NCBI RefSeq assembly: GCF_029873635.1
Contig: NC_080419.1
Coordinates: forward strand, 62,923,540-62,987,539
Reading direction: 5' to 3'
Length of the DNA stretch: 64,000 nucleotides
Source of the DNA: Malania oleifera
Taxonomy: Eukaryota; Streptophyta; Magnoliopsida; Santalales; Ximeniaceae
Under the pieces are notes generated by a model. It saw only the letters and a list, made by a program, of their open reading frames with translations. It did not search any database and had not been told where the DNA came from. Positions within the stretch are counted from its first letter, which is position 1; each line of letters begins with the position of its first letter. The translations under genes were made by a program, and so were the position numbers. Below, one piece after another: positions 3,503-57,294 of this stretch.

Positions 3503-5610
3503 TGTCGGAATTGATGTATTCCCAAGAGGGGGGTGAATTAGAAATTTAAACTTTCCTAGGTCAATTTATATAAACAACATTATTTCACAACCTAGGGTTT
3601 ATCTATGCAATACTTAATGTGCAGATAAATATAATATGTGGAAATTTAAATCATGTGTAGCATTCACCGACTTATTGAAAGATAAAATACATGTGCAATA
3701 ATTAAATTACAAAAATATAAAGTACACACACGATATGTTATCGGGGTTAAGCCAACTGTGCCTACGTCCTCGCCTCAGCTTGCAAGCCCAAGGATTATCA
3801 CTTTTGCTCACATAATGGGTGGAGCGACATGGATTACAACTAGGTCAAATTCCTAGGGCTGACCTTAACCTCTACAAACTCTCCTTGCAGGGTGGAGAAT
3901 GCCCTAGGTCAAATTCACAAGGCTGACCCCAACCTGATCCTTATGGGCTAGATCAAATCCCCTCAGACCACGCTTGGAATACAACAATGAAATACAAATT
4001 TGTGTACAATTCAAATTGCTTTTTTCACAAGAAGATTATGTACCGATACGCACATGTAATAATCAGCGCACATCAATATGATAAGAACTATAAGATCAAT
4101 GCTAATGAAGTATAATTACACTTAATCTAGTGTCAATAGTTAATCATGCATAAGAGTGTATTCACAAATAATCTTTGAAACAATAAATCAATATATCTTA
4201 ATCTTACGTAGGGTTTCAAAGATATCCAAATAGTATAGTTAAAATATCTCAATAATGATGTTCTTAAAAAATCTAGCGCAAAAGATATTTGAAATATAAT
4301 CTTGTCAAAATAGTTTTCACATAAACACAATACATGACAAGCTTAATGAGTTTTGCAATAATGGTGCAAAGACCCACTAGCTAAAAGTTTTCCCCACTTA
4401 ATGAGTTTATTAATTAGACCGAGGGGACAACCTTTGGCTAACAACTCTCAATCAAAAACAACAAGCAATCAAACACAATGAGAGTTATAGCTTTGGAAAG
4501 CAATGTAGGATGATTTAAAATACTCTCACTCAAATGGATTTTGCAAAAGAATGATCAAAAGAGGAGTATTTTGGCGTGGAGTATGAAGAAGGGTTCTCAA
4601 AAATTCAGAGAAAATATTTTCTAATTAAATCCCTAATCATGTATTAATTTTTACAAATGAGGACCTATATATAGAGATGGAAAAAATTACAGTCGTTGGG
4701 GACACACTGAGTATTTTGGAAAAAGATTAATTAAAAATAACCCAGTTTAACTTCGGTAATAATTGAACAACCCAAGAGGATTGATCGACCACTTTTGAGG
4801 TTCGGTCGACCAAGTTGCTCAGTTCGATTGACTAAGGTGTTTTTGAACTGCATTGATGGTCGACCAGACTTGAGGTGATTTTTGAACTCTGAGGTTCGGT
4901 CAACCGGTGCTAAGTTCGGTTGACCGAAGTTGAACGCTCGGTCGACCCAGCCACTTTACAGTAGGGCGTTCGGTCAACCAGGGGGTTTGGATTTCCCACA
5001 TGCTAGTTCGATCGACCAGCACATTGACGCTCATTTTAGGGACGGTCGATCAACTAGTCAAACCATTGACCCTGGGGAGGTTTGATGGACCGAAGGTCTT
5101 AGTATATTTTTGTTCGGTCAACTGACCATATAAAATTTTTGCATTTAAGTCTTAATTTCATTTGACGTCGCCCCTATTCATATGATTATCACTTCTAAGA
5201 TATATGGGGGCTTTTGCATACAACATATGGGGACATATGGCTAGTCTAAGGTCTTTGAGCATTTTAATTAGTCCCAAAAATTCAGCGTCGGTCGATAGAA
5301 GGGTGATCCCTAAGGTCCATATATGGTCTTGAGCTTATAATCTCTACATGCGATATGCAGTAATTATTACAAACCCAAATGATAAATATAAAAATATAAT
5401 AAAACTTGAAATAGACAAAGGCTTATGCACTGCTCCTTGAGAATTCCATGTATCGCACCGAAAGATATGCTCGTTTGAGTGCTTCTCGACTTCCATTTCT
5501 CATCCATCATCTGTACTTTAGAAAGGTAGACCAGTTCATACACTAAGCACACAAATGAGATATTGTGGTTTTCCATAATCAAAATAGGAGACGGACTCAC
5601 AAAGTCAACA
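3503..5610 (-). repeat. 5' LTR of element A
   Basis: Bounded by TGTCGG at 3503 and GTCAACA at 5610 and about 2.1 kb long, like the right LTR of element B (54650-56766), with which it shares both ends. In the sense direction U3 is on the right, the TATA box is near 4664-4674, and the U5 end carries the C-rich box seen in all the Copia LTRs here (plus-strand CCAAGAGGGGGGTGAATT near 3522-3540). Confidence 0.85.
4664..5125 (-). promoter_or_regulatory. U3 palindrome array plus TATA box, element A
   Basis: A sense-strand TATA box (CTATATATAGG, 4664-4674) is followed upstream (about 4780-5125) by roughly a dozen scattered copies of a motif close to TTCGGTCGACC, whose core GGTCGACC is a perfect palindrome. 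Spacing is irregular, so this is a cluster, not a simple tandem repeat. Position suggests promoter or enhancer sequence read by RNA polymerase II; binding proteins are unknown. Confidence 0.6.
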
Positions 5611-6497
5611 AACCACTTTGTGCAATCGATCAAATCTATTAAAATTTAAAATTTTGAATTATTTTCTCAAAATTGGCTAGAAACTTTGAGCATGACATGT
5701 GTTCTTTTGATGTCACATGTCAAGTTGCGACATTAGCAATTAGTAGTTGGTAGTTAATGGTGGTTACTTGGTAGGCTCGCCAAGGCTTGGGTTCTTAACT
5801 ACCAAAGATAAAATTTATACTAAAGAATTATTCTCAAGTTCAATAGAAAGCGGATAAGTTAGGTGTCGATCCATAGAGACTTAAAGCGCAATTATGAAAC
5901 CTCTTCCAACTTAGTTTACTAAAGCCTTGTTATGAAAAGAAGTAAAAGATGATATTTTTTAGGATATTTTCTATCTAACTATTGGAAATAATTAAACAAA
6001 AGCATGTAAACTATAACACTACTGGAAAGCAAGTAAAACCTATGTTACCCTACTCTTACAAAGCAATGTTGATGGATGAATCAGGAGCTGGACGCCATGC
6101 CTCTAACTACACTCCTTTAGGCTTTGATAGAAGTACCAACCCAAGAATCCCAGGCCAAAGTAGGAGAGGGACATACGAGGGCACATGGTGGCAAAGGTGC
6201 ACCAACCATCCAGAGCACGGTTAGGAACCGGAATATACCTTGTCTCAACGATCACAAACACCTCCGGGGAATCCGTGGTCAACTACTTCCCTCTAACGGA
6301 GACATAGTAATGCGTATCCTTATCTGCAAACTTTCATCACACACACAGCAGTAAATCGAAAGCAAGTAAAGAAAGCAATAAAGTGAAAGAAAGTAAAGGA
6401 GAAAGCATGTAAAAATATCATCCTTTTGCATTCATCACATCTATCACTGACTCCACGAAGTACAAAAGAAGTTCGTGTAATATACACGGAAGCACAA
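5611..6497. other. Old repeat-like noncoding DNA (left flank of element D)
   Basis: No gene recognised. The wording near 5830-5900 (a stretch around GGTGTCGATCCATAGAGACTT) and the purine-rich AAAGAAAGCAATAAAGTG tract near 6365-6410 resemble untranslated regions of large plant Gypsy elements, but I cannot place it. Short ORFs at 5982-6354 look like chance reading frames. The stretch continues at 14161 on the far side of element D. Confidence 0.35.
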
Positions 6498-8725
6498 TGT
6501 TGGCCTTACAAGGCTTAATATCCTATTTTGATGCTAACAAACAAGTAGAAATTAATATGTTTTGTTTAAGTGATATATTTTTAGGACTCAAGGATAGAAC
6601 GTTAAAGAATTGATGAAAGCTTGTACTTCAAAGAATGAATTCAATATGAAGCTTAAAGCATGGATTCAAAAATGGATTTAAAGTTTAAAGCCTGAAGATC
6701 ATGAGAGCATTGATATTAAAGAAAAGGCTTCAAGAATAAAAGCCCAAGTGATTAGCATGGAAAGCTTAAAGAAAGATGAAGCAAGCATAAAGACCTCAAG
6801 GAATTCAAGGATTGAAAATTTGAAAAAGTCTAGGAAATTTCATGTAAGTACTTCAAATAATCTCAATATGGATACATGAAGCTCTTAGGTAAATATATTG
6901 GACCTAGATACCTTTTAACATACTTGGAAAATATTTTTATAAGGTCAAAAACTGTTTCAAAAGGCTTAGAATCATTTTTGTAATGAAAAGCACCAAAAAG
7001 AGGATTTTCAAAATGCTGTTAATTTTTCTACATCTGCATTGAGGTGTATTTTTCTCTATCAGAAACTCTTTATTTTAAAAAGTGTTCAACATTAAAGTTG
7101 TAGGATTTTATTTTAGCTTTCATTTGACACCAAGATCATCAAATTCAGAGTTATAAAGAAAATGTTATTACTGAAAACTAGAAGGGTTCTCAAAGCTGAC
7201 CGCAGCATGTGTGCATGCCAGGCAACTGCCTGAACATGCCAGGCGCCTGGGTGGCTATGCCAGGCAACTGACTTAGTTCTGGTAGGTGACTGCCAAGCTA
7301 CTGCCTTTGCTGTTCCTTTAAAAATAACATGGCAGACGACTAGTGGTTGGGGGCAGGCGACTGCCATGCGGCTGTTTTGATTTTTCTCATAACGGTCAAA
7401 TTTTTAAATGGGGTTGTTTATGGCTCAAAATTTATGGAAACTTGGGGGATATTTCAACACACTTGGGGACCAAGTTACTTACCTTTTAAAGTCTATAAAT
7501 AAGCCTCAAATATTATTGAATCATACACCAAGAATTCAAATTCAGCAAAAATTCAAAATCTCTCTCAAGTTGCTCTCAAATTCTCAAAGCTCTCTCTTTT
7601 GCTCTCAACTTGCACGAAGCTTACTGAGTTCTTGTTGATTTTACTCACCAAGTTTGTGCCACAATTCTAAAATCATTCATCCATTTAAAGAATTAAATTG
7701 GTGAAACACTTCCTTGAGCTTCAAGTTATATTCCATATTATGATTTACTTTGAAGTATATTATTGTGTTGAATGTTGTACTAACCTAATATGCTGTGAGA
7801 GTGTTTTCTTGTACACAAACTCTTTTCTATCTTGGTTCTTGTTTATAGATGATTTAGGGTTGTAGAATCGTTGGACCAAATGAGAGAATATCGTTTGGAG
7901 AGGCGGGCTCTAGCCTAGTGAAGGAGTGTTTGAGCGTGGGGTATCGCTTGTAAAGGTTTTGTTCCACCCATCAAAGGAACAGGTTTAGTGAATCCTTTGG
8001 TAGTTTTCCAAAGGCGAGGATGTAGGCTGGGCATAAGCCGAACCTTGTAAAAATCTCCGTCTCACTTTCTCTTTCTCTACTTTTTTTTTTCAACATATTT
8101 AAATTGCGTGGATGGTTTAATTAATAATCATATATACTACGTAATATAGAAATCAAGTAAACTAAAAGTTAAATTTTGATTTGGGTTTCGGAAACCAAAA
8201 GGGAGTACGTTGGTTATACCATATCTTGCAGAAACCATAAAGGAGTACGTTACTTGGTTAACAGCCCAAGGATAAATTAACTGAGAGTTTAGTTGAGTTA
8301 TGAATATTGAAGAAGTAGATATTGTGTTGATTGGATGTTATATTGCACATCATCTTAAAGAAGCAAAACCATCAATACAAGGCTTTACATCAGCAAGCAT
8401 AAATTTTCATTCACTACAGGGCTTGGTTCAAATTTTGCTAATATCAACAAACAACCATTTTGAGTTTTTATATTACATAAGTGTTGTGTGTTGGTTTGGT
8501 TGTTTACTTTCTAATTATAGTTGATTGGTTTGGTTGAATGATTGGATGTTTGTATGGTTAAGGATTAAATAAAGAAACTAAGTTCTTGAGTGCTTAACAA
8601 ATTAAACAAACAAGTCATGAATTGGTTAAAAGAAATAAATTAAGTTTAAGAATTCTAAAAAGGAATTAAAAAAAAATTTTAAAAGCCAATTCACCCCCCC
8701 TCTTAGGAAGCCATTCCTAATTTCA
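6498..8725 (+). repeat. 5' LTR of element D
   Basis: Starts TGTTGGCC and ends TTTCA just before the primer site. It contains a U3 motif cluster, TATA box near 7493, a twice-repeated U5 box (GAAACC...GGAGTACGTT at about 8190-8211 and 8230-8251) and the C-rich U5 end (CACCCCCCCTCTTAGG). The 76-codon ORF near 7408 recurs in the 3' LTR only because the LTRs are copies. Confidence 0.92.
7200..7503 (+). promoter_or_regulatory. U3 motif array plus TATA box, 5' LTR of D
   Basis: Copies of a motif close to CAGGCGACTGCC (variants CAGGCAACTGCC, CAGGCGCCTGGG, CAGACGACTAG) lie at about 7215-7372, followed by the TATA box CTATAAATAAGCC at 7493-7505. Transcription would start shortly downstream. The motif is a near palindrome. 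Confidence 0.6.
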
Positions 8726-8727
8726 AT

Positions 8728-11923: not shown

Positions 11924-14155
11924 TGTTGGCCTTACAAGGCTTAATATCCTATTTTGATACTAACAAACAAGTAGAACTTAACATGTTTTGTTTAAGTGAT
12001 ATATTTTTAGGACTCAAGGATAGAGCGTTAAAGAATTGATGAAAACTTGTACTTCAAATAATGAATTCAATATGAAGCTTAAAGCATGGATTCAAAAATG
12101 GATTTAAAGTTTAAAGCTTGAAGATCATGAGAGCATTGATATTAAAGAAAAATTTTCAATAATAAAAGCTCAAGTGATCAACATGGAAAGCTCAAAGAAA
12201 GATGAAGCAAGCATCAAGACCTCAAGGAATTCAATGATTGAAAATTTGAAAAAGTATAGGAAATTTCATGTAAGTACTTCAAATAATTTCAATATGGAAA
12301 CATGAAACTCTTAGATTAATATATTGGACCTAGATACCTTTTAACATACTTGGAAAATATTTTTATAAGGTCAACAACTGTTTCAAAAAGGTTAAAATCA
12401 TTTTTGGAATGAAAAGCACCAAAAAAAAGATTTTCAAAATGCTGTTAATTTTTCTATATTTGCATTGAGGTGTATTTTTCTCTATCAAAAGCTCTTTATT
12501 TTGAAAATTGTTCAACATTAAAGTTGTAGGATTTTCTCCTATCTTTCATTTAACACCAATATCATCAAATTATGAGTTATACAGAAAAAGTTATTACTAA
12601 AAAATAGAAGGGTGCTCGAAGTTAACAACAGCATGTGTGCATGCCAGGCAACTGCCTGAACATGCTAGGCGCTTGAGTGGCTATGCCAGGCGACTACCTT
12701 AGTTCTGACAGGTGAATGTCAAGCTACTTCCCCTGCTGTTCCTTTAAAAATAACATGGCAGGCGACTAGTGGTTTGGGGCAGGCGACTGCCACGCGGCTA
12801 TTTTGATTTTTCTCATAACGGTCAAATTTTTAAATGGGGTTATTTGTGGCTCAAAATTTATGGAAACTTGGGGGATATTTCAACACACTTGGGGACCAAG
12901 TTACTTCCCTTTTGAAGTCTATAAATAAGCCTCAAATATTATTGAATCATACACCAAGAATTCAAATTCAGCAAAAATTCAAAATCTCTCTCAAGTTGCT
13001 CTCAAATTCTCAAGACTCTCTCTCTTGCTCTCAATTTGCACGAAGCTTACTGAGTTCTTGTTGATTTTACTCACCAAGTTTGTGCTACAATTCTAAAATA
13101 TTTCATCCATTGAAAGAATTAAATTGGTGAAACACTTCCTTGAGCTTCAAGTTATATTCCATATTGTGATTTACTTTGACGTATATTATTGTGCTGAATG
13201 TTGTACTAACCTACTCTGCTGTGAGAGTATTTTCTTGTACACAAACTCTTCTCTATCTTGGTTCTTCTTTATAAATGATTCAGGGTTGTAGAATCGTTGG
13301 ACCAAACAAGGGAATATCGTTTGGAGAGGCGGGCTTTAGCCTAGTGACGGAGTGTTTGAGTGTGGCGTATCGCTTGTAAAGGTTTTGTTCCACCCATAAA
13401 CAGGACATGTTTAGTGAATCCTTTGGTGGTTTTCCAAAGGCAAGGATGTAGGCTGGGTATAAGCCGAGCCTCATAAAAATCTCCGTCTCACTCTCTCTTT
13501 CTCTACTTTTTATTTTCAACATATTTAAATTGCTTAGATGGTTTATTTGATAATCATATATACTACGTAATATAGAAATCAAGTAAACTAAAAGTTTAAT
13601 TTTGATTTGGGTTGTGGAAACCGAAAGGGAGTACGTTGGTTATACCATATCTTGCAGAAACCATACGAGAGTACGTTACTTGGTTAACAGCCCAAGGATA
13701 AATTAATTGAGAGTTTAGTTTAGTTCTGAATATTGAAGAAGTAGATATTGTGTTGATTGGATGTTATATTGCACATCATATTAAAGAAGCAAAACCATCA
13801 ATACAAGGCTTTACATCAGCAAGCATAAATTTTCATTCACTACAAGGCTTGGTTCAAATTTGGCTAATATCAACAAACAACCATTTTGAGTTTTTATGTT
13901 ACATAAGTGTTGTGTATTGGTTTGGTTGTTTGCTTTATAATTATAGTTAATTGGTTTGGTTGAATGATTGGATGTTTGTATGGTTAAGGATTAAATAAAG
14001 AAACTAAGTTCTTGAGTGCTTAACAAATTAAACAAACAAGTCACGAATTGGTTAAAAGAAATAAATTAAGTTTAAGAATTCTAAAAAGGAATTAAAAGAA
14101 ATTTTTAAAAGCCAATTCACCCCCCCCCCCTCTTGGGAAGCCATTCCTAATTTCA
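11924..14155 (+). repeat. 3' LTR of element D
   Basis: Copy of the 5' LTR, 2232 bp against 2228 bp, ending TTTCA before the TSD. U3 motifs lie at about 12640-12800 and the TATA box at 12919-12930. The U5 boxes lie at about 13616-13637 and 13656-13677, and the C-run near its end has expanded to ten Cs. Confidence 0.92.
12630..12930 (+). promoter_or_regulatory. U3 motif array plus TATA box, 3' LTR of D
   Basis: Same plan as in the 5' LTR: CAGGCGACT-type motifs, then CTATAAATAAGCC at 12919. From this copy, transcription would read out into the right flank. Confidence 0.55.
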
Positions 14156-17684: not shown

Positions 17685-18055
17685 TATTTATAGGCTCATA
17701 AAATCATTTTTGTGTTGCCCAAGATTACTTGGAGCATTTCCCAAGTTTTGATGAAATTTAGGGCATAAGAAACTTAAGTTTGAATTTTAAAACATTTAAA
17801 AAATTGTAGTCGTTAATATTGTTCAATTGACTGAGCCATCGGGTTCAGGCTTCTCAAGTTCTTTAAAACAATAATAAAATTAACTAGAAATAGGGTCGGT
17901 CGACTGGGGTCACACAGTTTAGTCATCTGAGGTTATACTACCTCTTCAGGAATTCATCAAGAAATTCTTCAGTAGACTGAACTTAATCTTCAGCCGTCTA
18001 AGGATATACTTCAGCCTTCTGAGATTAAACTTCAGTCGTCTAGGTAGTTAAAAAT
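17685..18055 (-). promoter_or_regulatory. U3 motif array plus TATA box, 3' LTR of F
   Basis: The sense TATA box TATAAATAC lies at 17684-17692. Upstream in sense (about 17820-18055) are motifs near TCAGTCGTCTGA (plus strand: TCGGTCGACTGGG, TTAGTCATCTGAGG, TCAGCCGTCTAAGG, TCAGTCGTCTAGG). Confidence 0.55.
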
Positions 18056-18678: not shown

Positions 18679-19938
18679 TGTTGACTCTATGAGTCCAATT
18701 TGGTTTTGATAATGACAAATCACTTGGTATTTGATCTGTGCATTAAGATTGTGAACAGGAACTATATTAAGCATGCATGGAAGGATAACAAGTCATGGAA
18801 GCCATGAAGATTAAAGCATACATTTCTTGGCCCAATCCATGGAACTCAAAGAGTACAAGGATGAAGATGCAAGCAACAAGTTCAAGATTGCCATGGGAAT
18901 GGGTACTTAGAGCTAATGTATTTACATTTCATTAAATTTAATTTGAGGCTCAACATATACCCTAGAATTACCTTAGGTCTCATGCATTCAATGAACATCA
19001 TTAGGGGATATTTATGGACTTAGAAATACTTTTAAAACCCCATAAAATATTTTTTTATAAAAGAGCCAAGAAAGAAAGCAAAACAGATTTTTGAACTTGA
19101 AAGAAGAAATTTGGGAAATGGTCACTTCAGTAGCCTGAACTCAACCTCAGTCGCCTAAAGAATTTATTTAGAAGATCGAAGATTAAGTTCAGTAACCTGA
19201 AGAATTAAAGGTGAAACACAGAACCTGACCGAGACACCTTAGTAAACTGAACCCAACTTCAGTCGCTTGAACTCGTCACTTCAGTCACCTGACCCTTAAC
19301 TTCAGTCGCCTGACCCTCTATCTAGGTTAATTTTTTTGAAACTCTAAAGAACTTTAGTCACCTGGGCTTTTAACCTTAGTCGCTTGAACTTGTGGGAAAA
19401 CTTAAAAATATAATTTTTAATAAGAGAACTCACGAGATATTTTTTGATCCAACGGTTAGGATTGATTCTATGGGTAAGATACCTATATATTGAACATCTA
19501 AACCCTAGTACGTTAGTTAAGATCAATGAGAAGAGAAGGGAACATATTTTTGAAATAGAATTGAGAAACTTGAGCATGTAGCTATACGATTGCCTGCACT
19601 CTAACTTATACTCATCAAGCTTGGGCAAATCAACTCAGAAAATCAAAGGGAATTCAGTTACACATCTTGAGTTTATCTTGGTATTGAGGTTTAGTCAATC
19701 CATTTATTATTTTCAAGAGTTTCTCATCTCATTATTTGTTATTGAATATTATTATTATTAGAGAGATCGATCTTGATTTTTTCATATACATATAGAGAGT
19801 GTTTTTGACAAGCTCATTACTTGAAAAAGTTTTTCTTTGGGGATTGGTTAAACAGTTATCATTCAAGTGTGTCCTTAGTTAAAGACTTGATATTTTGGAT
19901 ACTTTAAAACCATTTGATTAAATATCCTTAGAAGCTCA

Positions 19939-21175: not shown

Positions 21176-22273
21176 TCAATTGTCAATATCATCATCTTCC
21201 TCTTCAACTTCTTCTTCATCTCCTTCCTCTTCATAACATTCCTCTTTATCTTCTTCTTCATCTCCTTCCTCTGATTCTTCATCATCGCTCCAAGGAGCAG
21301 AACTAGTGTCCATAGGATAAATACCGTGGGATGAGCTAGCCTGATATTTTTCAATATGAGTGAGGTGTTGATCGAGTGAGGAACAAGTAGAGTGAAGTGA
21401 AGATACATCCTCCCGAAGGGATTGAAGTCCCGATATCATGTCTCTATTGAAGGTGGAGAATTCATGATGAAAGGGAACAAACCACAAAAGTGTATTAGCA
21501 GGAGGTCCTTGGTCTTGAACTGGAGGAGGAGGAGGTACTACTGTTGGTGCTCTTTGAGGTCTTCCTCCTTTCAAGAACCAACCCTGATCGTGCTTTTCAT
21601 AGCCCATCTGCTTGAGGGTTGTGGAGGTGAAGAGATCATATCGGGTACGTTTCATGAACAACTCAAAAGGTATGGTTATATCAAGCTGAGCCAAGATAAG
21701 ATTCAAAGCACCTCCATATGGAAGAGTCACTCTAGATGCTTCTAACTTTGCCCACATCCACTTCAAAAAGAGACTAGACAGATCAATTTTCTTTCCTTTA
21801 AGTAAACACCATAAAACAAAGCACTCAACATAGGAAAGATGATCGAAGGAGCCAGTCTTGGGTAAGATGTTATATGAAATGATTTTGTGAAGGATTTGGG
21901 CCTGAAGATTCAATTGTTTGTACAATGGTGGATGTCCAAAATATACGGGTTCATTTTCCATAACCAGAGGCAAAAATGCTTCATATGTGAAGTCTTGCTC
22001 TAAAATCCAGGATTGAGCAAAGGCGGGACATTCGAATTCTCCTGGGGTGATATGTAGAATGGGAGCTAAAATTTGAGGAGTTAGAATAATTTTCTTGCCT
22101 CTAACATCTGTAGTTAAAACACCGTCTCCATGAATCATGTTGGCATAAAAAATTTTGATAAGATTGGGAAACATGCCTTTGGCTTGGTAAACCACAATGT
22201 TCTTCCAACCTATATTCCTAAACATAGGTGGTATTTCAAGGAATTTTGTATCAAAGAAGGAGGTGTCGATCAC
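21176..22273 (-). CDS. Accessory ORF of element F, plant transposon-associated domain with acidic tail
   Basis: A 365-codon open frame, the longest in the window. Its sequence (GWKNIVVYQAKGMFPNLIKI, VRGKKIILTPQILAPIL, SYVECFVLWCLLKGKKIDL) fits the family annotated as 'putative plant transposon protein domain', of unknown function. After the domain (residues 1 to about 235) come a proline run (PPPPP), a possible short coiled coil (about 275-310) and a strongly acidic Asp/Glu tail (about 325-365) that could bind basic proteins. The first codon shown is GTG. In-frame coding continues upstream to an ATG at 22412-22414 but crosses three stops, so the N-terminus is broken or translation starts at an internal Met. 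No pol or env signature and no membrane segment is obvious. Function unknown. Confidence 0.7.
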   Translation of the reverse strand: MIDTSFFDTKFLEIPPMFRNIGWKNIVVYQAKGMFPNLIKIFYANMIHGDGVLTTDVRGKKIILTPQILAPILHITPGEFECPAFAQSWILEQDFTYEAFLPLVMENEPVYFGHPPLYKQLNLQAQILHKIISYNILPKTGSFDHLSYVECFVLWCLLKGKKIDLSSLFLKWMWAKLEASRVTLPYGGALNLILAQLDITIPFELFMKRTRYDLFTSTTLKQMGYEKHDQGWFLKGGRPQRAPTVVPPPPPVQDQGPPANTLLWFVPFHHEFSTFNRDMISGLQSLREDVSSLHSTCSSLDQHLTHIEKYQASSSHGIYPMDTSSAPWSDDEESEEGDEEEDKEECYEEEGDEEEVEEEDDDIDN

Positions 22274-22414
22274 TTTACCAAGGATAAGATCTGTAGAATG
22301 GAGAGTAGAACAATAACGAAGCTAGGATGGAGATGTGACTAGTCATCTCTCAATGTTGTTATCGTCTCTGCTAGTAGAAGTTCCTCAGTTTGCTATCATC
22401 TTAGTGCAAGGCAT
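22274..22414 (-). pseudogene. Broken N-terminal extension of the accessory ORF
   Basis: In the same frame as the 365-codon ORF, an ATG at 22412-22414 begins MPCTKMIAN, then stop, GTSTSRDDNNIER, stop, LVTSPS, stop, and a run continuing into the open frame. Two of the stops are TGA and one is TAG, all reachable from sense codons by single transitions. The full original protein was therefore probably about 410 residues. Confidence 0.5.
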
Positions 22415-22599
22415 ATTGAAGGTTAGAGAGTAAAAAAACACCAGCTGTGAAACCCTAGAATCCATAGGTAAGGAAGTATAATCGTGTTGGGAGGCTTGGA
22501 CTCAATAGATATTTGGTAAGGATTAAAGGAAACAGAGAGTGGGTACCTCGGATGAGAGATGGAGCAATGTTCATAAGTCTGAAGTTAGAGTTTTTGCGT

Positions 22600-22967
22600 G
22601 TTAAATATATAGATCCTGCGACTTCAATAGACTGAAGATTAAGCTCATTCTTCTGAAGATTTTCATAATAGGAATCTGAACAGGCAGTAGCACCTCAGTC
22701 GACTAAGGTGTGCTAGCTCAGGTGCCTGAACCTTTTAATATACAATGTTTAGTCGCCTGAGCTTCCAGGCTCAGTCACTTGAAGTCCTTAACCTTCTAAA
22801 TATTTTCTTTTCTCTTAACATGAAATCTTCCTTCTTTTGTTTTATCACATTATCAGGCTTCAATTGTCTTTTAAAATTTGCTTTTGAGACTTATGACTTC
22901 CTTGATCTTTGAAGATAAGCTTCCAACACTCCAAGTCTTATTGATGTTCGGCCAACAATGACATTTT
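22600..22967 (-). promoter_or_regulatory. U3-like promoter module upstream of the accessory ORF
   Basis: In the sense direction the block begins TGTTGGCCGAAC at 22967, like an LTR start. It then has a cluster of motifs at 22618-22795 (plus strand CCTCAGTCGACTAAGG, CTCAGGTGCCTGAACC, TTAGTCGCCTGAGC, CTCAGTCACTTGAAG), followed by a TATA box CTATATATTTAAC around 22600-22612. The accessory ATG lies about 190 bases downstream. No LTR R/U5 end or primer site follows, so this is not a whole LTR. Confidence 0.5.
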
Positions 22968-36422: not shown

Positions 36423-38153
36423 TGTTGGAATTGTTGTATTCCCAAAAGGGGGTGAATTGGATTTTTAAAACTTTTCTCTTAGGTTAAACCAGATATTAAT
36501 AGTATTTCGGAACCTAAGGTCTTTCTAAAAGCATACTCAATTCACTAAGCAAATAACTGAGCAAAATTCAAAGATGTATGGCAGGCTCAATAATTAACGA
36601 TTATACACAATAAAACATAAACATTCAAGTGCTGGAATTTAAACTGCAAAAATTAAAATTAGGCATAAGAAATGTTATCAGGGTTCGGCCAACAATTCCT
36701 ACGTCTCCGCCTCAAACTCACAAGCAAGAGGATTCCACTATAGCTTGCTTAATGGGCGGAGCGGCATCTAATACAACACCTTACCAGGATAGTGCACCTA
36801 GTTCTCCTAAGCAAGTCTGAACCGGTCTGGTGCTCTCCTAATCGAGTGTGAGCAAGTCTAGGACTATTCACAGGGCTAATCTCCCTCTTCCGACAACCCG
36901 TCGGGAATACAACAGATAATCAAATTTTTTCATACAAACAAATATGCTTCTTACAATAAGCAAATATTTACCACAATAAGCATAATGTAATTAATGCACT
37001 CCCAAATGATAGGATATTAGGCTCAAGTCAGATTTCGTTAACCAATGTGTTAACTCTCAACAATATGTGTGTTATTATGTATATGTGAAAATGAGACCTT
37101 TGATTTCAAGATAATATACTTGCAATACGAATAGTTAAAGAGTCTCTACAACCGTAAGCAAATATCACAATAGTATTTTTCAAATATCAAGAACAATGGA
37201 TATTAGGGTTTAAGCTTGCTAAAAAATATTTTTATCAAAACACAAAACAAGCTTATGAAACTTGTAATAAGGATGCAAGTTCTTAAGCCAATGAAGAGTT
37301 TTTCCCAATCCAATATTTATAGGTAAAATATAATAGAAAAAACTTTAAGCTACTCTCCAAAAATTAATACACAAACAAATGCAAGTGTGGGAGAGTTTAA
37401 GCTTGTAAGATGAACGTGAAGAAATGATCTCTCTAAAAAATAAGTAACTAGATGAGTATGAGAAAGAAATTTTGACAATATGTTTGTAAAAGGTGGGAGT
37501 ATGAAAGATTTAGCACAACAAATTTTCAGAGAAAAATTTGCTAATATATATCCTAATATGTTGCTAATTAGGACAAATGAGGGAATATATATAGAGTTGG
37601 GAAAAAATATAATCGTTGAGGACATTAAGGGTATTTTGGAAATTAATTGAGTTTAATGAAAGTTGACCCTATTTTACTACGGTAAAAATTTTACCAACCT
37701 GAGAGGTTCGGTCGATAGTATTTAAGGTTTGGTCGACCATGTTACTAAGTTCGATCAAAGTGGCATTTTTGAACTAAGGTTTTGGTTGACCGTCCAAAGG
37801 CAATTTCGAACCCTTCGTAGGTTCGGTTGACCATGGTTGAGGTTCGGTTGACCGTTCATGAGGTTCGGTGAACCGTGACAAATTTAAACTATGAGTTCGG
37901 TCGACCAAGTAGTTGGGGGTCAAACGCGTGTCAGTTCGGTCGACCGTGGAGGACACGTTCATTTCAGAATGGTTGACCATGAAGTCAACATTTTGACTTC
38001 TTGGCCGATTTGGTCAACCGAGGCATTTACACTACCTAGGGTTTGGTCGATCGAAGGAAGGTCAAATTTTGACCCTATGTGTAAACAGTGTTTTGGTCGA
38101 CCATGGTAATATTATACACAAGCGGCCAGTCGACCGAAGACAATTTAACATAC
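36423..38153 (-). repeat. 3' LTR of element B, left part
   Basis: Begins TGTTGGAATTG and matches 54650-56390 of the sister LTR almost throughout. It includes the TATA box (37584-37594) and a dense GGTCGACC array (37700-38140). It is interrupted at 38153 by element C with TSD CATAC. Confidence 0.9.
37584..38140 (-). promoter_or_regulatory. U3 palindrome array plus TATA box, 3' LTR of B
   Basis: TATA-like TATATATA at 37586-37593, then about twelve copies of GGTTCGGTCGACC-type motifs from 37706 to 38135 (for example TTCGGTCGACCAAG, GGTTCGGTTGACC, TTCGGTCGACCGTGG). Confidence 0.6.
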
Positions 38154-40082
38154 TGTTAACATTACCGTGATACCAAGAGGGGGGGTAAATTGGTATTTTA
38201 AAATTAATGCCCTACGTTAGTATCCTAACAGCAGTATATTCACAACCCTAAGGTCAATCTAGTGCAAAAGTAAATCAATTATAATATGTACCAGAAATTA
38301 AATAACACAATTTAATTAACCAAGCATGCACCATAAAGTAGAAAAGAGAAATGACATGTAGAAATGTTATCGAGGTTCGACAAATTGCCTAGGTCCCCAC
38401 CTTAGCTAACAAGCACAAGAATTACCACTATAATGCTCACTTAAATGGGTGGAGTAGCACCTAAACAAACTAGGTCAATTGGCACGGGGCTGACCTCAAC
38501 CTTTACACAATCCTTACGGGGTTGGATTACCGCCCCCTCAGGCCACGTCTGGAAATACTATAGTATTCTTTCAATCAAATGGTACAGTGATTATGCTTTC
38601 ATGTAAAGCAAATATGTACCCTATACGCGCAGTCAAATACACATCAATGATATAGATATAGTGTAAGCTCAGTGATGCAAATAGTTGTGCTATCAACACT
38701 CAATATGGTATAATCAGTGATATGCTCAAGAGTGTTCAAAACAAGTAGTATCTTGGAATCTAAGCAAAGCACAGTTCAGTAGCAAATCAATATTCCAAAG
38801 ATATGAATCAGATAATCAAACTAGTTCAAGAAGATTTTCCTCAATGAAATAAGCATAATACTAGTTTGAAAATGTTTTGCTTGTTTGAAAAATCTTTGCA
38901 CAATAAAAATCCAAGCTATTGGACACTTCAAATAATAATGCAAATATCCTAAGTTCACTTAGTTTATCCCAGCACAAGATTTATAATATCAAAATTTGTG
39001 GGATAAACTTCAGGTAAAATCCCAAAAAAAAAATATCACACTCAATCAATAAAATGGGAGTTTCTAGCAAGGTGTAGCAATCACAAGCACTCAAAATATG
39101 CTCTCACAAACTCAGAATATATCAATGAAATGAAGATTTGAGAGTGTTTGGACAAATAGTGTATTTTGAAAAGAGAGAATTTTGGCTAATGAAAATTGTT
39201 AATTCTTGTCTAATCTTTGCAAATGAGCCTATATTTATATGCAAGGGTAAAATTATAACTGTTTGGGACTTGTTGAGAATTATTAAAAAAGTTTCAAATA
39301 GTTAAAACACCATTAACCCAACTTAACCGGTTTTTACCGTAGTTAAATTAATTTAAACCCACCGAGGTTCGAGTGGTTGAACCATGGTTTGGTTGCCCGA
39401 ATAGACACAGTAATAAAAGTCATTTAAATCAGTTTGGTCACCTGAATTCAAGTTCGGTTACCTAAATCAAAGTCGGTAGCATTGCTTTGTGACTTTGGGT
39501 GCCCGGTCATATATTCGGTGGCCTGAATTCAAGTGTTCGGTCACCCAAAGCTCAATTTGAACTAAATAGCTCGGTCACCTGAGTTGGTGGAATGTCCCTT
39601 TCGAAGGGTTCAGGTGCCCAAGGACAATGTGCATAAATATGTTCGGTTGCCCGAGAGCCTAATTGACTTCTGAACAGTTCGAGCACCCGAGGAGTTTTGA
39701 ACTCTTAGGGTTCGGTCGCCCGAGCTCTCTCAATTTACCTAATATTGTTCAATTTAAGCTCATTTTCAAACACCCTTGTTATTTGTATGGTATGTGTGAG
39801 TGTTGGGACCTAAAGTCTTACTATGGCCTTACTAAGCTTACCATATATCCTATATGCATGATATGCAGGTAAGAAAATACAGACCATATCCTAGGTTACT
39901 ATTACAGACCCATATTACAATAATTGAATTTGACAATACAAATTAAAATCTTAAGGGTCTTCTTATTACTTCAAGTGTCATTCCTTGATATGCTCATTTA
40001 AGCCTGCACAAATACTTGACAACCATCAAATACCTAAGTATTTATCATTATCAAAATCGGATGTGACCCTATAAGGTCAACA
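38154..40082 (-). repeat. 3' LTR of element C
   Basis: TGTTAACATTACC to GGTCAACA, 1929 bp. It matches the 5' LTR once solo LTR I and the 200-bp duplication are removed from the latter. Confidence 0.92.
39232..39725 (-). promoter_or_regulatory. U3 motif array plus TATA box, 3' LTR of C
   Basis: Sense TATA box near 39232-39239 (plus-strand TATTTATA). Motifs near TTCGGTCGCCCGA lie from 39361 to 39725 (for example TTTGGTTGCCCGAA, TCGGTCACCTGAG, TTCGAGCACCCGAGG). Confidence 0.6.
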
Positions 40083-46234: not shown

Positions 46235-48547
46235 TGAAAAGCAAGGTGTAGTCCCAAGAGGGGGGTTGAATTGGATTCTAAAAATTTCTTTTAATTCCTT
46301 TTAAAATTCCTTAAACTTCTTTTATTTCTTTTAACCAATTCTTGACTTGTTTGTTTAATTTGTTAATCACTTAGTTTCCTTTATCCAATCAATAATACAA
46401 TTAAACAACCAATCAATTAAGCACAATCTCCAATCCAAAACAATCAATTTATTTGCCAAGTATGAGTTAATTGAAGCACTATTAAATTAATGGAAGCTTG
46501 CACGATTCAGTATTCTTTGGAATATAAACACAATCCACTCAATATCAATCTTTAAAACATTCAATCACAATAAAGCTTTTGTCGTCAACCCTGGGTATAA
46601 AATTGAATTAGGCCCTGTATATATAAAATGAATTCTTTAATGCAATCCACAATTCAAATCTCAAACAATTCAATATTCACACTCTTCCCAATATTCAAAA
46701 TCCAAATAAACTCTCAATTAATTTATCTTTGGGTGTTTAACCAAGTAACGTACTCCCATATGGTTTCCGCAAAGAATGGTTTAACCTACATACTCCCTTT
46801 CGGTTTCCGCAATCCCAAATCAAAATTGAACTTAATGTTTACTTGATTTCCAAATATACATATTTTATATGATTTTCAATTAAACCATCCACGCAATTTA
46901 AATGTACTGAAAATAAAGAGTAAGGGAAAGAGAGAGTGAGACAGAAATTTTTACGAGGTTCGGCTTATACCCAGCCTACGTCCTTGCCTTTGGAAAATCA
47001 CCAAATGATTCACTAAACATGTTCCTTTAATGGGTGGAACATACCTTTACAACACTCCTTGGTTAATTCTAGAGCCCGCCTTCTCCAAACGATGTCTCCT
47101 CGTTCAGTCACTCCTTAATTAGGCTAGAGCCCGCCTCTCTAAGCAATATCCCCTTTCTTAGCCAACGATCCAAACAATCCTTGGAATTGTCAATTTAAAA
47201 GAAACACAAACAAAATATGTGTACAAAGAATATGCTCTCACAAAGAGCTGATTAGTACAACAATTACATCACAATACAATACTTCAATAAAATTCACAAT
47301 ATGAAATTCAAATTTGAAGCATTAGAGTTATATCACCGTATGATTCTTTCAATAGATGAAAGAAGTAGTAATTGAAGCACAATCTTAGTGAGAATCAGCA
47401 AGACTTTTAGCAACTTTGTGCAAGATTTGAGCAATAGAGCACTTTTAGAATTTCAGAATACTTGAGAGAGAGTTTTGAATGCTGAACTGATTTCTTGATT
47501 TCTCTTCTTGTGTTGGTGTTTAAATCAATGGAACTTGAGGGTATTTATAGATGTAGAAAGTGATTTAGCTTGTTCCCTAAGTTTACTTGGAGTAGGGTCC
47601 AAGTTATAAATTTTTTTGGGTTTCAAATAATTAATTTCAAAAATATGCTCGTTGGAAATTTTGAAATCAGCCGCGAGCCAGACGACTGTGTAGTCACTGG
47701 CAGTCGACTGTCTAAACATTACAACTATAAAATTCACAAACAGAGAGGTGGCAGTTGCCTGCCTCAGGTTGGCAGTCATTTGCCACCAAAATAACTCAAT
47801 TTTAAAACACACAAAAGGGTGGCAGTCGACTGGCAGAACACACATAGATGACTCACTGGTCACTGGTAGTCGTCTATCAACAACTTGACAGTTGTCTGTC
47901 CAACTTCTATCCATTTAAATAAATCTTTTAAACTTGCCATTCGTCTGTCCATAGATAGACAGTTGTTTGTCCATCAGACTTTTCCTTCTTTTAAAAATTT
48001 TTTTATCTCTCTCATTTTTGCTTAATTAATCTTGGAATATAAACTTGTTTAACTTTGAAAAAACATGTTCCAAGACTTAAACTAAGGTCTCTAAGTCTTT
48101 CTTTACCTAATGAGCTTCAAAATGAAAAACATATTTGAACCATTCTTGAAGTACTTACAAAGACTTGTCCTAAAGACTCATTTGACTTTTCGTTGCTTTA
48201 AGTTCTCTTTGTCTTCTTTGCTGAGCTTCAATGATCCTGAATTATATGTGAGCTTTCAATTCATTATCTCTCTTGATCTTTCATCAAAAGTTTAGACTTT
48301 GAGCTTCATTGTTCTTTGAGCTTTCATCAGGTTCTCTTTAATACTCATGCTCTCATGATCTTCAAGTTTTATCTTTAAATCCATACTTCAAGCTTGATAT
48401 AATCATTCTTATATGAAGTATAAGCTCTCATGAATTCTTTAACCTTGCATTCATTATTGAGTCCTGAAAATACATCACTTAAACAAAGCATGTTAAGTTC
48501 TACTTGTTTGTAAGCATCAAAATAGGATAAGCCTTGTAAGGCCACCA
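46235..48547 (-). repeat. Solo LTR I, family D, inserted in the 5' LTR of C
   Basis: 2313 bp with TSD CTTTG (46230-46234 and 48548-48552). In sense it begins TGGTGGCCTTACAAGG, like the LTRs of element D, and ends at the shared U5 C-rich box. No internal sequence. This is the innermost layer of the B-C-I nest, so the D family was active after C inserted. Confidence 0.9.
47542..47970 (-). promoter_or_regulatory. U3 motif array plus TATA box, solo LTR I
   Basis: Plus-strand GTATTTATAG at 47541-47550 is the TATA box. Motifs near GGCAGTCGACTG lie from 47680 to 47960 (CAGACGACTGTG, TGGCAGTCGACTGTC, GGTAGTCGTCTATC, GACAGTTGTCTGTCC). Confidence 0.6.
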
Positions 48548-48835
48548 CTTTGCACAATAAAAATCCAAGCTATTGGACACTTGCAATAATAATGCAAATA
48601 TCCTAAGCTCACTTAGTTTATCCCAGCACAAGATTTATAATATCAAAATCTGTGGGATAAACTTAAGCTAAACTCCCCAAAAATAATATCACACTCAATC
48701 AATCAAATGGGAGTTTCTAGCAAGGTGTAGCATTCACAAGCACTCAAAATATGCTCTCACAAACTCTGAATATATCAATGTAGTGACGATTTGAGAGTAT
48801 TTGGACAAATAGTGTATTTTGAAAAGAGAGAATTT

Positions 48836-49235
48836 TGGCTAATGAAAATTGCTAATTCTTGTCTAATCTTTGTAAATGAGCCTATATTTATAGGCAGGGG
48901 TAAAAGTATAACCGTTTGGGACTTCTTTGGAATTATTAAAAAAAATTTCAAATAGTTAAAACACCATAAACCCAACTTAACCAGTTTCTACTACAGTTAA
49001 ATTAATTTTAACCTGCCGAGGTTCGAGTGGCTGAATGGCTAATGAAAATTTCTAATTCTTGTCTAATCTTTGCAAATGACCCTATATTTATAGGCAGGGG
49101 TAAAAGTATAACCGTTTGGGACTTATTTGGAATTATTTAAAAAATTTCATATAGTTAAAACACCACAAACCCAACTTAACCTGTTTCTACCACAGTCAAA
49201 TTAATTTTAACCCACCAAGGTTCGGGTGGCTGAAC
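48836..49235 (-). repeat. 200-bp tandem duplication in the 5' LTR of C
   Basis: Bases 48836-49035 and 49036-49235 are near-identical direct copies (each with TGGCTAATGAAAATT..., the TATA box at 48885 and 49085, and GGTTCG(A/G)GTGGCTGAA at the end). The 3' LTR has one copy only, so the duplication arose after insertion. Confidence 0.9.
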
Positions 49236-49590
49236 CATGGTTCATTCGCCCGAACAGATACAGTAATAAAAGTCATTTAAATCAGTACCGTCGCTCGGAT
49301 TCAAGTTCAGTTACCCGAATCAAAGTCATTAGCATTGCTTCGTGACTTTGGGTGCCCGGTCATATATTCGGTGGCCCAAACTTTAGTTTTCGGTCACTCG
49401 AGACTCAATTTGAACTAAATAGCTCGATCGCCCGAGTTGGTGCAATGTCCCTTTCGAAGGGTTCAGGTGCCCGAGGACAGTGTGCATAAATATGTTCGAT
49501 CGCCCGAGAGCCTAAGTCAACTGTTGACTTCTCAACAGTTCAGGCGCCCAAGGAGTTTTGAACTCTTGGGTTCAGTCGCACGAGCTCTCT
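49190..49590 (-). promoter_or_regulatory. U3 motif array, 5' LTR of C
   Basis: Motifs near TTCGGTCGCCCGA (GGTTCGGGTGGCTGAACC, CTCGATCGCCCGAG, TTCGATCGCCCGAG, TTCAGGCGCCCAAGG) lie upstream of the two tandem TATA boxes. This LTR would have driven element C. Confidence 0.55.
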
Positions 49591-49942: not shown

Positions 49943-50324
49943 CATACAATTTTGCCCTCAATTTGACCCTAAAAATCCAACGTTGGTCGACCGAAGTCTA
50001 GTTTGGTTCCCTACGGTTAGTCTATGGCCATATTGAGCTTTTATCCCTATCATGCATGCGATGCAAATATTATTGACAATAATTATTATAGACCCAAAAA
50101 ATTATGAAACAAAAATGCATTTACAATTAAAAAAATGTCTTCTTCGTTAGCTCTTGACTCTTCATGGAATCAGAGTGGATTATGTGCTTTAAGTCCTTTC
50201 TGGCTTCCATTTCACTACATGTGTGTGTTCTAAATGATTAACCTATTCAAGTACTTAGGTACACACATTAATAACATGAAGTTTGTCATTATCAAAACCA
50301 GGGATCAGACTCAAAAAGTCAACA
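49943..50324 (-). repeat. 3' LTR of element B, right part
   Basis: Continues the B LTR after element C; it matches about 56386-56766 and ends AAGTCAACA. Confidence 0.9.
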
Positions 50325-54647: not shown

Positions 54648-54649
54648 AT

Positions 54650-56766
54650 TGTCGAAATTGGTGTATTCCCAAAAGGGTGGGTGAATTGGATTTTTAAAAC
54701 TTTTCTCCTAGGTCAAAGTAGATATTAGTAGTATTTCGCAACCTAGGGTCTTTTTAAAAGCAGACTCAATTCACCAAGAAAATAACTGAGCAAAATTCAA
54801 AGCATGTATGGCAGGCTTAGTAATTCACGATCATACATAATAAAACATAAACATTTGAGTGTTGGAATTTAAACTGTGAAAATTAAAATCAGGCACAAGA
54901 AATATTATCGGGGTTCGGCCAACAATTCCTTCGTCTCTACTACAAGCTCACAAGCAAGAGGATTCCACTATAACTCGCTTAACGGGTGGAGCGACACCTA
55001 AGACAACACCTTACTAGGATGGTGCACCTAGTTCTCCTAACCAAGTTTGAACCAGTCCGGTGCTCTCCTAACCGGGTCTGAGCAAGTTTGGGACTATTCA
55101 CAGGGCTAATCTCCCTCTTTTGATAACCCGTTGAGGATACAACAGATAATCAAATTTTTTCGTACAAACAAATATGCTTCTTACAATAAGCAAATATTTA
55201 CGACAATACGCATAATGTAATTAATGCACTCACAAATGATAGAATATTAAGTTCAATTTAGATTTCGTTAACTAATGTGTTAACTCTCAATAATATGTGT
55301 GTTATTATGTATATGTGAAAATGAGACCTTTGATTTCAAGATAATATACTTGCAATATGAATAGTTAAAGAGTCTCTACAACCCTAAGCAAATATCACAA
55401 TAGTATTTTTCAAATATCAAGCACAATGGATATTAGGGTTTAATCTTGCTAAAAATATTTTTATCAAAACACAAAACAAGCTTATGAAACTTGCAATAAG
55501 GATGCAAGTTCTTAAGCCAATGAAGAGTTTTTCTCAATCCAATATTTATAAGTAAAATATAATGGAAAAAATTTTAAGCTGCTCTTCAAAAATTAATACA
55601 CAAACAAATTCAAGTGTGGAAGAGTTTAAGCTTGTAAGACGAATGTGAAGAAATGATCTCTCTCAAAAATAAGTAACTAGATGAGTTTGAGAAAGAGATT
55701 TTGGCAATATGTTTGTAAAAGATGGGAGTATGAAAGATTTAGAACAACAAATTTTCAGAGAAAAATTTTTCTAATCTATATCCTAATCTATTGCTAATTA
55801 GGACAAATGAGGGAATATATATAAAGTTAGGAAAAAATATAACCGTTGGGGACATCAGGGGTATTTTGAAAATTGTTTAATTGAGTTTAATGAAAGTTAA
55901 CCATGTTTTACTGTGGTAAAAATTTTACCAACCCAAGAAGTTTGGTTGACCGTATTTAAGGTTTGGTCGACCATATCACTAAGTTCGGTCGACCGTGGCA
56001 TTTTTGAACTAAGGTTTTGGTTGACCGTCCAAAGGTGATTTCTAACCCTTCGTAGGTTCGGTCGACCATGACCGAGGTTCGGTTGACTGTTCATGAGGTT
56101 TGATCGACCGTGGCCAATTTGAATTATGAGTTCAGTCGACCAAGTAGTTAAGGGTCAGACACGTGTCAATTCGGTGGACTATGGAGGACATGTTTATTTT
56201 AGAATGGTCGACTATGAAGTCAACATTTTTACATCTTGGCTGGTTCGGTCGACCGAGGCATTTACACTACCTAGGGTTCAGTTGATCGAAGGAAGGTCAA
56301 AGTTGACTCTGTGTGTAAATAGTGTTTTGGTCAACCATGGTAATATTATACACCAGCTGTCGGTCGATCGAAGACAATTTAACTTTCAATTTTGCCTTTA
56401 ATTTGACCTTAAAAATCCAACGTCGATCGAGCGAAGTCTGGTTTTGTTTCCTACAGTCAGTCTATGGCCATATTGAGCTTTTATCCCTATCATGCATGCG
56501 ATGCAAATATTATAGACCATAATTATTACAGACCCAACAAATTATGAAACAAAAATGCATTTACAATTAAATCAAATGTCTTCTTCTTTTGCTCTTGACT
56601 CTTCATGGAATCAGCCTAGATTATGTGCTTTAAGACCTTTCTGGCTTCCATTTCACTTACATGTGTGTGCTCTGAATGATTAACCTGTTCAAGTACTTAG
56701 GTACACACGTTAGTAACCTGCAGTTTGTCATTATCAAAACCAGGGATTAGACTCAAGAAGTCAACA
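54650..56766 (-). repeat. 5' LTR of element B
   Basis: TGTCGAAATTGG to AAGTCAACA, 2117 bp. Sister of the interrupted left LTR, with the same U5 box, TATA region and palindrome array. Confidence 0.92.
55813..56375 (-). promoter_or_regulatory. U3 palindrome array plus TATA box, 5' LTR of B
   Basis: TATA-like TATATATAA near 55816-55824 and GGTCGACC-type motifs from 55935 to 56375 (TTCGGTCGACCGTGG, GGTTCGGTCGACCATG, TTCGGTCGACCGAGG). Several positions differ from the sister LTR only by C/T or G/A changes within the motif. Confidence 0.6.
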
Positions 56767-57012
56767 TGTCTAGTGTAAAATATTTTGATTTCTCTTTAAG
56801 TTTCTTTTATTTTTTATATTTTCATTTAAGTTAGGATTTTTTTGGTCAAAAATGACTATTGACAATGAATAACTAGAAGGGAAAAAGAATATTCAAGATG
56901 GAGGAAAATATTTCACAACCAATGGACGAAAGAATTGAAGAAACAATGGTGGGTTGTGAATAAACAAGTGGACTAGGACCCACTCCCATATGATTAGTAC
57001 TTGGACACCAAC
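56767..57012. other. Short spacer between elements B and J
   Basis: AT-rich noncoding DNA, no feature recognised. It probably continues the old repeat cut at 36422 by element B. Confidence 0.4.
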
Positions 57013-57079
57013 TGTAAAGACCCGAAGAAATAAGTAAATAAATGAAAGGAGAGGAAAGGATTTTTCAAAAGGGACTCGG

Positions 57080-57294
57080 CAAGGTCTCGTCGACGAACGC
57101 AGAGCACTCGGTTACGAGCAACCTTCTTAGGCTCTTCGACGTGGACTCAAGTCTCATTGACGAGAACTTACCAAGAGGGGTTTAGCAGCCTGAAGTTCAT
57201 CGATGAGGGTTACGAGGTCGTTGACGAACTCTCTTCATGGAATCGTCGACGAGGTGACATGTCTCGTCGATGAATCAGCACTACATAAATATAC
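57080..57294 (+). promoter_or_regulatory. U3 palindrome array plus TATA box, element J
   Basis: Seven copies near TCGTCGACGA occur from 57085 to 57273 (CTCGTCGACGAACG, CTTCGACGTGG, CATTGACGAGAA, TTCATCGATGAGG, TCGTTGACGAAC, ATCGTCGACGAGG, CTCGTCGATGAATC), followed by TATA-like CATAAATATACC at 57284-57295. The plan is the same as in the Copia LTRs although the element is Gypsy. Confidence 0.6.

Follow-up and report, generated by a model that had tools for sequence, protein, structure and literature searches.

The locus considered here raises the question of why nine families of long terminal repeat (LTR), eight of Copia and one of Gypsy type, carry clusters of short near-palindromes upstream of the TATA box, and of what such clusters would do for the elements that harbor them. 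The window, i.e., the whole 64-kb stretch of DNA that was analysed, is a nest of plant LTR retrotransposons, as found by self-comparison and reading. Palindrome arrays themselves have been known since 2010 for one retrotransposon group, the Sireviruses, which occupy much of certain plant genomes, e.g., 21% of that of maize B73 (available part of PMC10760457). With respect to the available parts of the literature, what is new here is the two-turn spacing of the sites and the same plan in an element from an unrelated group. If spacing follows DNA turns, a role through DNA-protein contact could be told apart from one through RNA hairpins. Should a Gypsy element use these same sites, either group could serve in the search for the bound factor. 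The shared ancestry of the families and the single 64-kb window limit the reach of the claim.

Elements and Arrays in the Window

The LTRs, the palindrome arrays and one open frame are collected in Table 1, where LTR boundaries and TATA positions are by-eye readings accurate to a few bases; below, 3 or 5 after a family letter denotes its 3' or 5' LTR. In a Pfam scan covering 10 of the 16 listed frames, F displays a copia-type gag (a gag of this type lies just below the Pfam cut-off in A), H combines RVT_2 with an SH3-like domain, and J harbors an RVP_2 protease together with SH3_Tf2-1.

Table 1. LTRs, palindrome arrays and one open frame of the 64-kb window.
Feature	Position	Strand	TATA	Basis and remarks
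A LTR	3511-5610	-		5' LTR; element runs off the left edge of the window
A array, core GGTCGACC	4779..5126	-	~4672	EM search, consensus caller
D LTRs	6498-8727 and 11924-14155	+		Self-comparison and reading
D 5' LTR array, GCCAGGCGACTGCC type, 6 sites	7217..7365	+	~7497	Spacings 21,21,22,50,21
D 3' LTR array, same as D 5', 6 sites	12643..12791	+		Consensus caller yes, EM search no
F LTRs	16620-18540 and 27085-28913	-		Self-comparison and reading
F 3' LTR array, TTCAG..CTGAA type, 8 sites	17822..18044	-		EM search, consensus caller; spacings 21,21,21,50,23,51,22
F 5' LTR array, decayed copy, 5 sites	28209..28388	-		EM search, consensus caller
F open frame with PF20167 (Transposase_32)	21179..22321	-		Pfam
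F internal second array, 7 sites at >=10/14	22570..22783	-		Upstream of envelope-type ORF; spacings 22,31,23,50,21,53
G LTR	from 18680	+		3' end not found within the window
G LTR array, TTCAGTCGCCTGAA type, 9 sites	19126..19388	+	~19487	EM search, consensus caller
C LTR	23816-25913	-		Single copy seen
C LTR array, TTCGGGCGACCGAA type, 12 sites	25087..25451	-	~24957	EM search, consensus caller
B LTRs	36422-38153 plus 49943-50321, and 54649-56768	-		First LTR split by H insertion
B 3' LTR array, GGTCGACC, 12 sites	37707..38138	-	~37590	EM search, consensus caller
B 5' LTR array, 13 sites	55941..56435	-	~55826	EM search, consensus caller
H LTRs	38154-40082 and 45487-49942	-		Second broken by I
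H 3' LTR array, type as C, 12 sites	39368..39724	-	~39235	EM search, consensus caller
H 5' LTR array, 12 sites	49221..49584	-	~49094	LTR split downstream by I; consensus caller only, outside the EM test
I LTR	46235-48548	-		Solo LTR
I solo LTR array, CAGTCGACTG type, 8 sites	47677..47971	-	~47548	EM search, consensus caller
J LTR	~57012 to 59250	+		Second J LTR not seen in the window
J (Gypsy) LTR array, CTCGTCGACGAG type, 8 sites	57085..57275	+	~57290	Spacings 21,25,21,43,21,25,21

Motif Discovery and Motif Forms

An EM motif search using neither a consensus nor a palindrome prior was applied to 12 U3 and 12 R-U5 segments, with 40 dinucleotide shuffles of each. Eleven of the 12 U3 segments score above all their shuffles (29.5-74.5 vs. 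shuffle maxima of 20.5-25.9), the exception being that of D3 (9.4 vs. 21.2). Four of the 12 R-U5 segments also do so (C, 21.5 vs. 20.8; D5, 16.7 vs. 16.4; I, 20.2 vs. 17.9; J, 19.7 vs. 8.6); three of these passes are narrow, the motifs are unrelated to those of the arrays, and that of J tracks a 38-bp tandem repeat. Palindromy, scored in the unshifted frame only, exceeds every shuffle in 4 of the 11 U3 segments (A, H3, G, and J), the remaining EM motifs being off-centre, e.g., cGGTCGACCgAA. A separate scan for palindromic 8-mers in 400-base windows flags GGTCGACC in A, B3, and B5, CGTCGACG in J, AGTCGACT in I, and AGGCGCCT in D3, other words in G and H5 (ACTGCAGT, TCGCGCGA), while C, F, H3, and D5 yield no such word; flags elsewhere fall on AT-rich and certain other words.

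A consensus caller counts between 5 and 13 sites in each U3 of the 13 LTR copies vs. 0 to 2 in the remainder of each LTR, and four half-site patterns run over the 64 kb reveal a sole cluster besides the LTR arrays, the internal one of F. In the short E LTR there is no array, only a single site at 10/14. The initial annotation had reported near-palindrome clusters upstream of TATA in A, B, C, D, F, G, H, I, and J, with a family-specific consensus and none in E; the EM search and the consensus caller bear out the clusters and the differences between families, with the restriction given above for D3. Two other statements made there, that spacing is irregular and that no description is known, are not borne out (see below), and the observation as a whole is partly confirmed.

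When copies are aligned with their flanks, information is high across 14-16 bp and mostly 0-0.5 bits outside, with single positions of up to 0.8 bits in D/I, F/G, and J. Pooling both LTRs per element and related families in these alignments should raise the likeness of flanks and not hide it. As information falls beyond the 14-16-bp site, the repeated thing is the site itself and not a longer unit.

In element sense, the motif reads TTCGGTCGACCGAA in A and B, TTCGGGCGACCGAA in C and H, CTCGTCGACGAG in J, TTCAG-centre-CTGAA in F and G, and GCCAG-centre-CTGCC in D and I. A CGG-CCG core is present in A, B, C, and H, replaced by CAG-CTG in D, F, G, and I, and absent in J. The asymmetric centre points in one direction in D and H and in the opposite one in G, both of which an orientation-free enhancer would allow. 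As for candidate binding sites, TTGACC, the W-box (WRKY) consensus, occurs in the A/B site where its centre is TG or CA; as a general answer the W-box was rejected, most sites outside A/B lacking TTGACC by eye in the site list. Among the CBF/DREB, IDD, ARF, and LBD sites, none seemed to suit all families.

Most centres are CG, CA, or TG, the latter two being products of CG deamination; they make up 43, 27, and 17, respectively, of the 112 sites found by a centre-blind caller. Such a distribution is what loss of methylated CpG would yield, and it fits a reading, already raised by the initial annotation, in which the promoter would be switched by methylation of the arrays as CpG islands, with the palindromes serving only to pack CpG densely. 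Observed/expected (o/e) CpG ratios computed on the arrays are 0.76-1.33 in A, B, C, H, and J vs. 0.26-0.53 in the remainder of those LTRs. However, the ratio is 0.37-0.56 in the arrays of D, F, and I (0.68 in G), where motif and spacing are nonetheless kept, and the packing of CpG needs no dyads 20-23 bp apart. A general methylation switch is not supported across the families, and this reading is considered improbable.

Relation to the RM Boxes of Sireviruses

Judged by those hallmarks that can be tested in the window, the Copia elements resemble Sireviruses. The polypurine tract (PPT) AGGGGGAG, followed by two bases and the TG of the 3' LTR, is exact in D3 (AGGGGGAG-AT-TG at 11914), exact in B but with TT as the two-base spacer (50334, minus strand), and found with one mismatch in H3 and F3, where the spacer is AA or AC; A, C, G, and I give no match to AGGGGGAG, the window holding no visible 3' LTR junction for these. 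A C-rich integrase signal near the 3' end of the LTR can be found in seven of the eight Copia families (A, B, C, D, F, H, and I; interrupted in B5), the one outside this count being G, the 3' end of which was not found. The junction between the 5' LTR and the primer-binding site (PBS), TTGGTATCAGAGC, is an exact 12-mer in D5 (8728), B5 (54636), and H (45473), with one mismatch in F5 and two in A; no internal region was seen for C, G, and I. At least eight motif copies are present in A, B, C, F3, G, H, and I, and fewer in D (6) and F5 (5).

In the available part of their paper, Bousios et al. (2010, BMC Genomics 11:89, PMC2829016) describe RM boxes in 13 Sireviruses as palindromic, family-specific repeats in at least eight copies, located in the upper LTR half, immediately before TATA, and forming CpG islands, with an additional cluster before the envelope gene. 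The RM box is termed Sirevirus-specific there, the comparison being made among Ty1/copia elements; no common factor site was found in the boxes, and the role of LTR palindromes was left open. The arrays of the window are likewise palindromic, family-specific, and just upstream of TATA, F also having an extra cluster before an envelope-type ORF, and the Vitis RM box, CGGTCGACCG, is identical to the A/B core. In contrast, D, F, G, and I display CAG-CTG where the published boxes, as far as that part of the paper goes, have CGG-CCG with one exception (Tnd-1), and D and F5 fall below the eight copies. Because the arrays match the RM boxes, the statement of the initial annotation that no description was known is wrong: for Sireviruses, the core observation is in print since 2010. 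Going beyond the available part of PMC2829016 are the 20-23-bp spacing, CAG-CTG in four families, the same plan in the Gypsy element J, and the second, TATA-like-bearing array of F. A search by spacing words found no mention of RM spacing in that part, and neither RM spacing nor a Gypsy version was found described in the available parts of the literature searched, including PMC2829016, PMC5311732, PMC10760457, PMC4029996, and PMC3601003.

Tnt1 boxes and ONSEN heat-shock elements are U3 sites bound by host factors, probably with fewer copies and other sequences than the arrays of the window; like these arrays, they are repeated or symmetric sites before TATA. PMC2829016, in its available part, notes that Tnt1 box I is symmetric.

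Spacing and Layout of the Sites

Regarding spacing, which the initial annotation had called irregular, one LTR per family was retained (nine arrays, sites more than 80 bp from an array being dropped), giving 75 neighbour distances that are not independent, since the families share ancestry. Thirty-five of these distances lie at 20-23 bp, the others being 32-34 (11), 36-39 (5), 41-45 (8), or 49-53 bp (10) or other (6), with none at 24, 26-31, 35, or 46-48 bp. When the consensus-free EM sites are used, 27 of 78 distances belong to the 20-23-bp class, vs. a mean of 9.7 and a maximum of 20 in 5000 randomly placed sets, which contradicts irregular spacing. With the centre-blind caller, the excess is over the random maximum at two of three thresholds (30/69 and 15/43), the strictest, with 12 spacings, exceeding neither random maximum. 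The 20-23-bp step, i.e., two helical turns, is firm.

Of the 29 rows returned by Tandem Repeats Finder, six have a period of 20 or 21, and all six lie inside arrays (two overlap); B3, D5, F3, G, and H3 are read as having two to three copies of 20-21 bp in tandem. Such copies, and the layout of J as a block (21,25,21) used twice, could be expected if the arrays were functionless by-products of local tandem duplication (minisatellites), and local duplication may well be the origin of new sites. As an account of the arrays, this is nevertheless improbable: flanks share little information, the two blocks of J match at 15 of 44 non-motif positions, no multiple of 21 falls among the 32-34- and 50-53-bp spacings, and the arrays lie directly before TATA in every LTR read.

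A wider phase of about 10.5 bp is suggestive. Over the nine arrays R is 0.58, a value reached in none of 5000 random placements (minimum distance 18 bp), and the phase is above all 5000 trials also for A, B, C, and H together and for D, F, G, and I together; for J alone, it is not significant (p=0.16 vs. random placement). In trios made of one LTR per family group, p is <0.0002 for B3, G, and J, 0.0008 for A, F3, and J, and 0.03 for H3, I, and J, with other periods beating 10.5 bp in two of the three. Taken by themselves, D, F, G, and I favour 14.75 bp (R 0.88 vs. 0.66 at 10.5 bp), and J favours 22 bp. EM sites give a mean cosine at 10.5 bp of 0.33 vs. a random maximum of 0.23; among the 75 distances above, the preference for 10.5 bp is weak once the 20-23-bp class is removed (mean cosine 0.31 over 40 spacings), periods of 9.5-10 bp having an equal or larger resultant. 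In A, the consensus caller skips EM-found sites, so that pairs of out-of-phase 36-38-bp steps are counted as in-phase steps of 72 or 74 bp. An uncontrolled lag plot that uses no site caller peaks at lags 21, 42, and 71, with 10.25-10.5 bp as the best of 11 periods.

Layouts were compared as chains of sites in register within 3 bp, vs. 60 random arrays. Of the 36 pairs, 11 have chains at P<=0.05, namely 7 of the 12 pairs within the A, B, C, H and D, F, G, I groups (A-B, A-C, B-C, C-H, D-F, D-G, and F-I) and 4 of the 24 between groups (A-D, B-D, B-G, and C-J). All six D sites are in register in D-F and D-G (P=0.02 and 0.03), where spacers match no better than shuffled ones (0.30 vs. 0.31 and 0.38 vs. 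0.37, respectively); spacers of A-B, A-C, and B-C match above shuffled (0.38-0.41 vs. 0.28-0.30). These comparisons show that layout has been retained between some families.

Candidate Functions of the Arrays

From sequence features, the chance seems somewhat better than even that the arrays are Sirevirus RM boxes (with a look-alike in J), in which clustered self-complementary sites of 12-16 bp would act as an enhancer for a putative dimeric host factor. A dimeric host DNA-binding protein would occupy each dyad, the dimers would be aligned along one face of the DNA beside TATA, and neighbouring dimers might cooperate, the array presumably activating transcription rather than repressing it. In F, the module may have been reused before the envelope-type ORF, perhaps as an internal promoter. 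Of the readings considered, the one proposed by the initial annotation, a shared enhancer with one putative dimeric host factor class, has the best support, to which the 20-23-bp step, missed there, adds; the interpretation given there is, as a whole, partly supported.

The palindromes could alternatively act through hairpins formed in RNA (or single-stranded DNA) between neighbouring copies, e.g., as templates of small RNAs silencing the element. Self-complementary copies 21 bp apart could form stems of about 14 bp with loops of about 7 bases, and folding beyond that of 60 shuffles is strong in the arrays of A, B5, B3, and I (z from -4.1 to -5.2) and weaker in those of H3 (-2.9), F5 (-2.7), and H5 (-2.3). 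For maize Sireviruses, whose palindromes likewise cluster within the regulatory LTR portion, small-RNA hotspots have been reported at palindrome-rich LTR regions and a role for RNA structure is proposed (Bousios et al., 2016, Genome Res, as cited in the available parts of PMC5311732 and PMC10760457). In contrast, five of the nine families of the window include arrays without notable folding, i.e., C (z -1.8), J (-1.7), D (-1.3 and -0.5), G (-0.2), and one LTR of F (F3, -1.2), and two segments outside the arrays also fold (I upstream, -3.0; H5 R-U5, -3.1). Moreover, the commonest centres, G..A in C, H, and D and T..C in G, would put two mismatches in a stem between copies, and a hairpin loop does not need a fixed 20-23-bp step. 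Hairpins are thus an unlikely basis for the arrays. The RNA-hairpin and CpG-switch readings fit only some families, and in those showing them RNA folding and CpG density may be consequences of the motif.

The Gypsy-Type Element J

Considering its RVP_2 and SH3_Tf2-1 domains, read as Gypsy-type, and its other LTR ends, J is a look-alike and not a Sirevirus member. Its array may be unrelated to those of the Sireviruses, the likeness being a coincidence, a possibility to which a substantial chance, if short of even, is given. The J dyad, TCGTCGACGA, is two bases shorter than TCGGTCGACCGA, the 10.5-bp phase of J alone has the p value given above, and its layout matches that of C at P=0.05 and none other of the eight arrays at that level. 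Against coincidence, J shares with A/B the GTCGAC core (one of 64 six-base palindromes, or one of 16 with a CG centre), its array has the same position before TATA as Sirevirus arrays, and four of its seven steps are of 21 bp. A more far-reaching proposal, which is doubtful, is that one grammar of GTCGAC-type dyads, two helical turns apart and upstream of TATA, would be common to Sireviruses and an unrelated Gypsy element and be reused before an envelope-type gene; it would mark a single host factor class exploited by two superfamilies, the outer bases drifting by family and the spacing being kept.

Among Gypsy elements, the LTRs of Del (Ty3/Gypsy) have a CpG-rich variable segment in their 5' part, for which the authors cite the Sirevirus regions, and no such CpG island was found in eudicot Del (Cruz et al., 2014, PMC4029996, available part). 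Del thus resembles J as a Gypsy LTR with a CpG-rich 5' segment and differs in that no palindromic array is described for it in that part of the paper.

Second Arrays and Related Loci

The internal array of F has a TATA-like TATATATT at ~22611, after its sixth site. The label of the ORF that follows as envelope-type is inferred from its position after pol; its protein is homologous to the post-pol frame of a 3-kb contig (L001; 30% identity over 244 positions). The latter belongs to a bacterial assembly titled Eubacterium sp., and its reverse transcriptase shares 67% identity with the one in H; the contig is probably plant DNA that came along with the assembly. Between pol and a PF20167 ORF, L001 harbors four palindromes of the TTGRGTCGACCCAA kind with spacings of 22, 16, and 22. 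Neither second array alone is statistically strong (P=0.026 for F and 0.25 for L001). Similar arrays precede a PF20167 ORF in both, an observation counted toward the enhancer reading.

In viral contigs, protein scans and DNA patterns found no relative. A looser J-type pattern gives at least 120 stretches there; among the matches listed, viral loci reach at most eight J-type sites per 350 bases, in loci of 69-73% G+C, and only the ten lowest are at or below 0.58 G+C. They were set aside as probable chance matches in GC-rich viral genes.

The search of genome contigs returned 14 loci, of which L001 is plant-like, L002-L013 show 26-40% identity, and L014 is read as bacterial apart from its start. 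A protein search with the F ORF gave one match, from Malania oleifera, with 65% over 24% of the query.

Coding content and LTR structure

Both gag and a PF20167 ORF are present in the Copia element F, which looks non-autonomous since the scan of its open frames of at least 130 residues, 23095-23616 excepted, revealed no recognisable pol. The contig from a bacterial assembly whose reverse transcriptase resembles that of the Copia element H (L001) carries a pol of Sirevirus-like type together with an envelope-type ORF; it is labelled Eubacterium sp. (MAG) and is probably plant carry-over.

As the TATA region of the H 5' LTR falls inside a 200-bp tandem duplication, with copies 92.5% identical, the core promoter of this LTR is doubled. 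The insertion point of H is the outer end of the palindrome array of B, a Sirevirus-like element; palindromes are reported as frequent targets of LTR elements in PMC6911290. Approximately three 33-bp tandem repeats are found in place of palindromes in the short Ale LTR of element E, and the R-U5 part of the Gypsy element J contains 4.8 copies of a 38-bp tandem repeat.

Positions of the features described
Feature	Position
F element	16620-28913
L001, pol and envelope-type ORF	1-3046 (contig)
H 5' LTR duplication	48836-49234
H insertion point	38149-38154
E LTR repeats	15453-15561; 31389-31483
J R-U5 repeat	58051-58233
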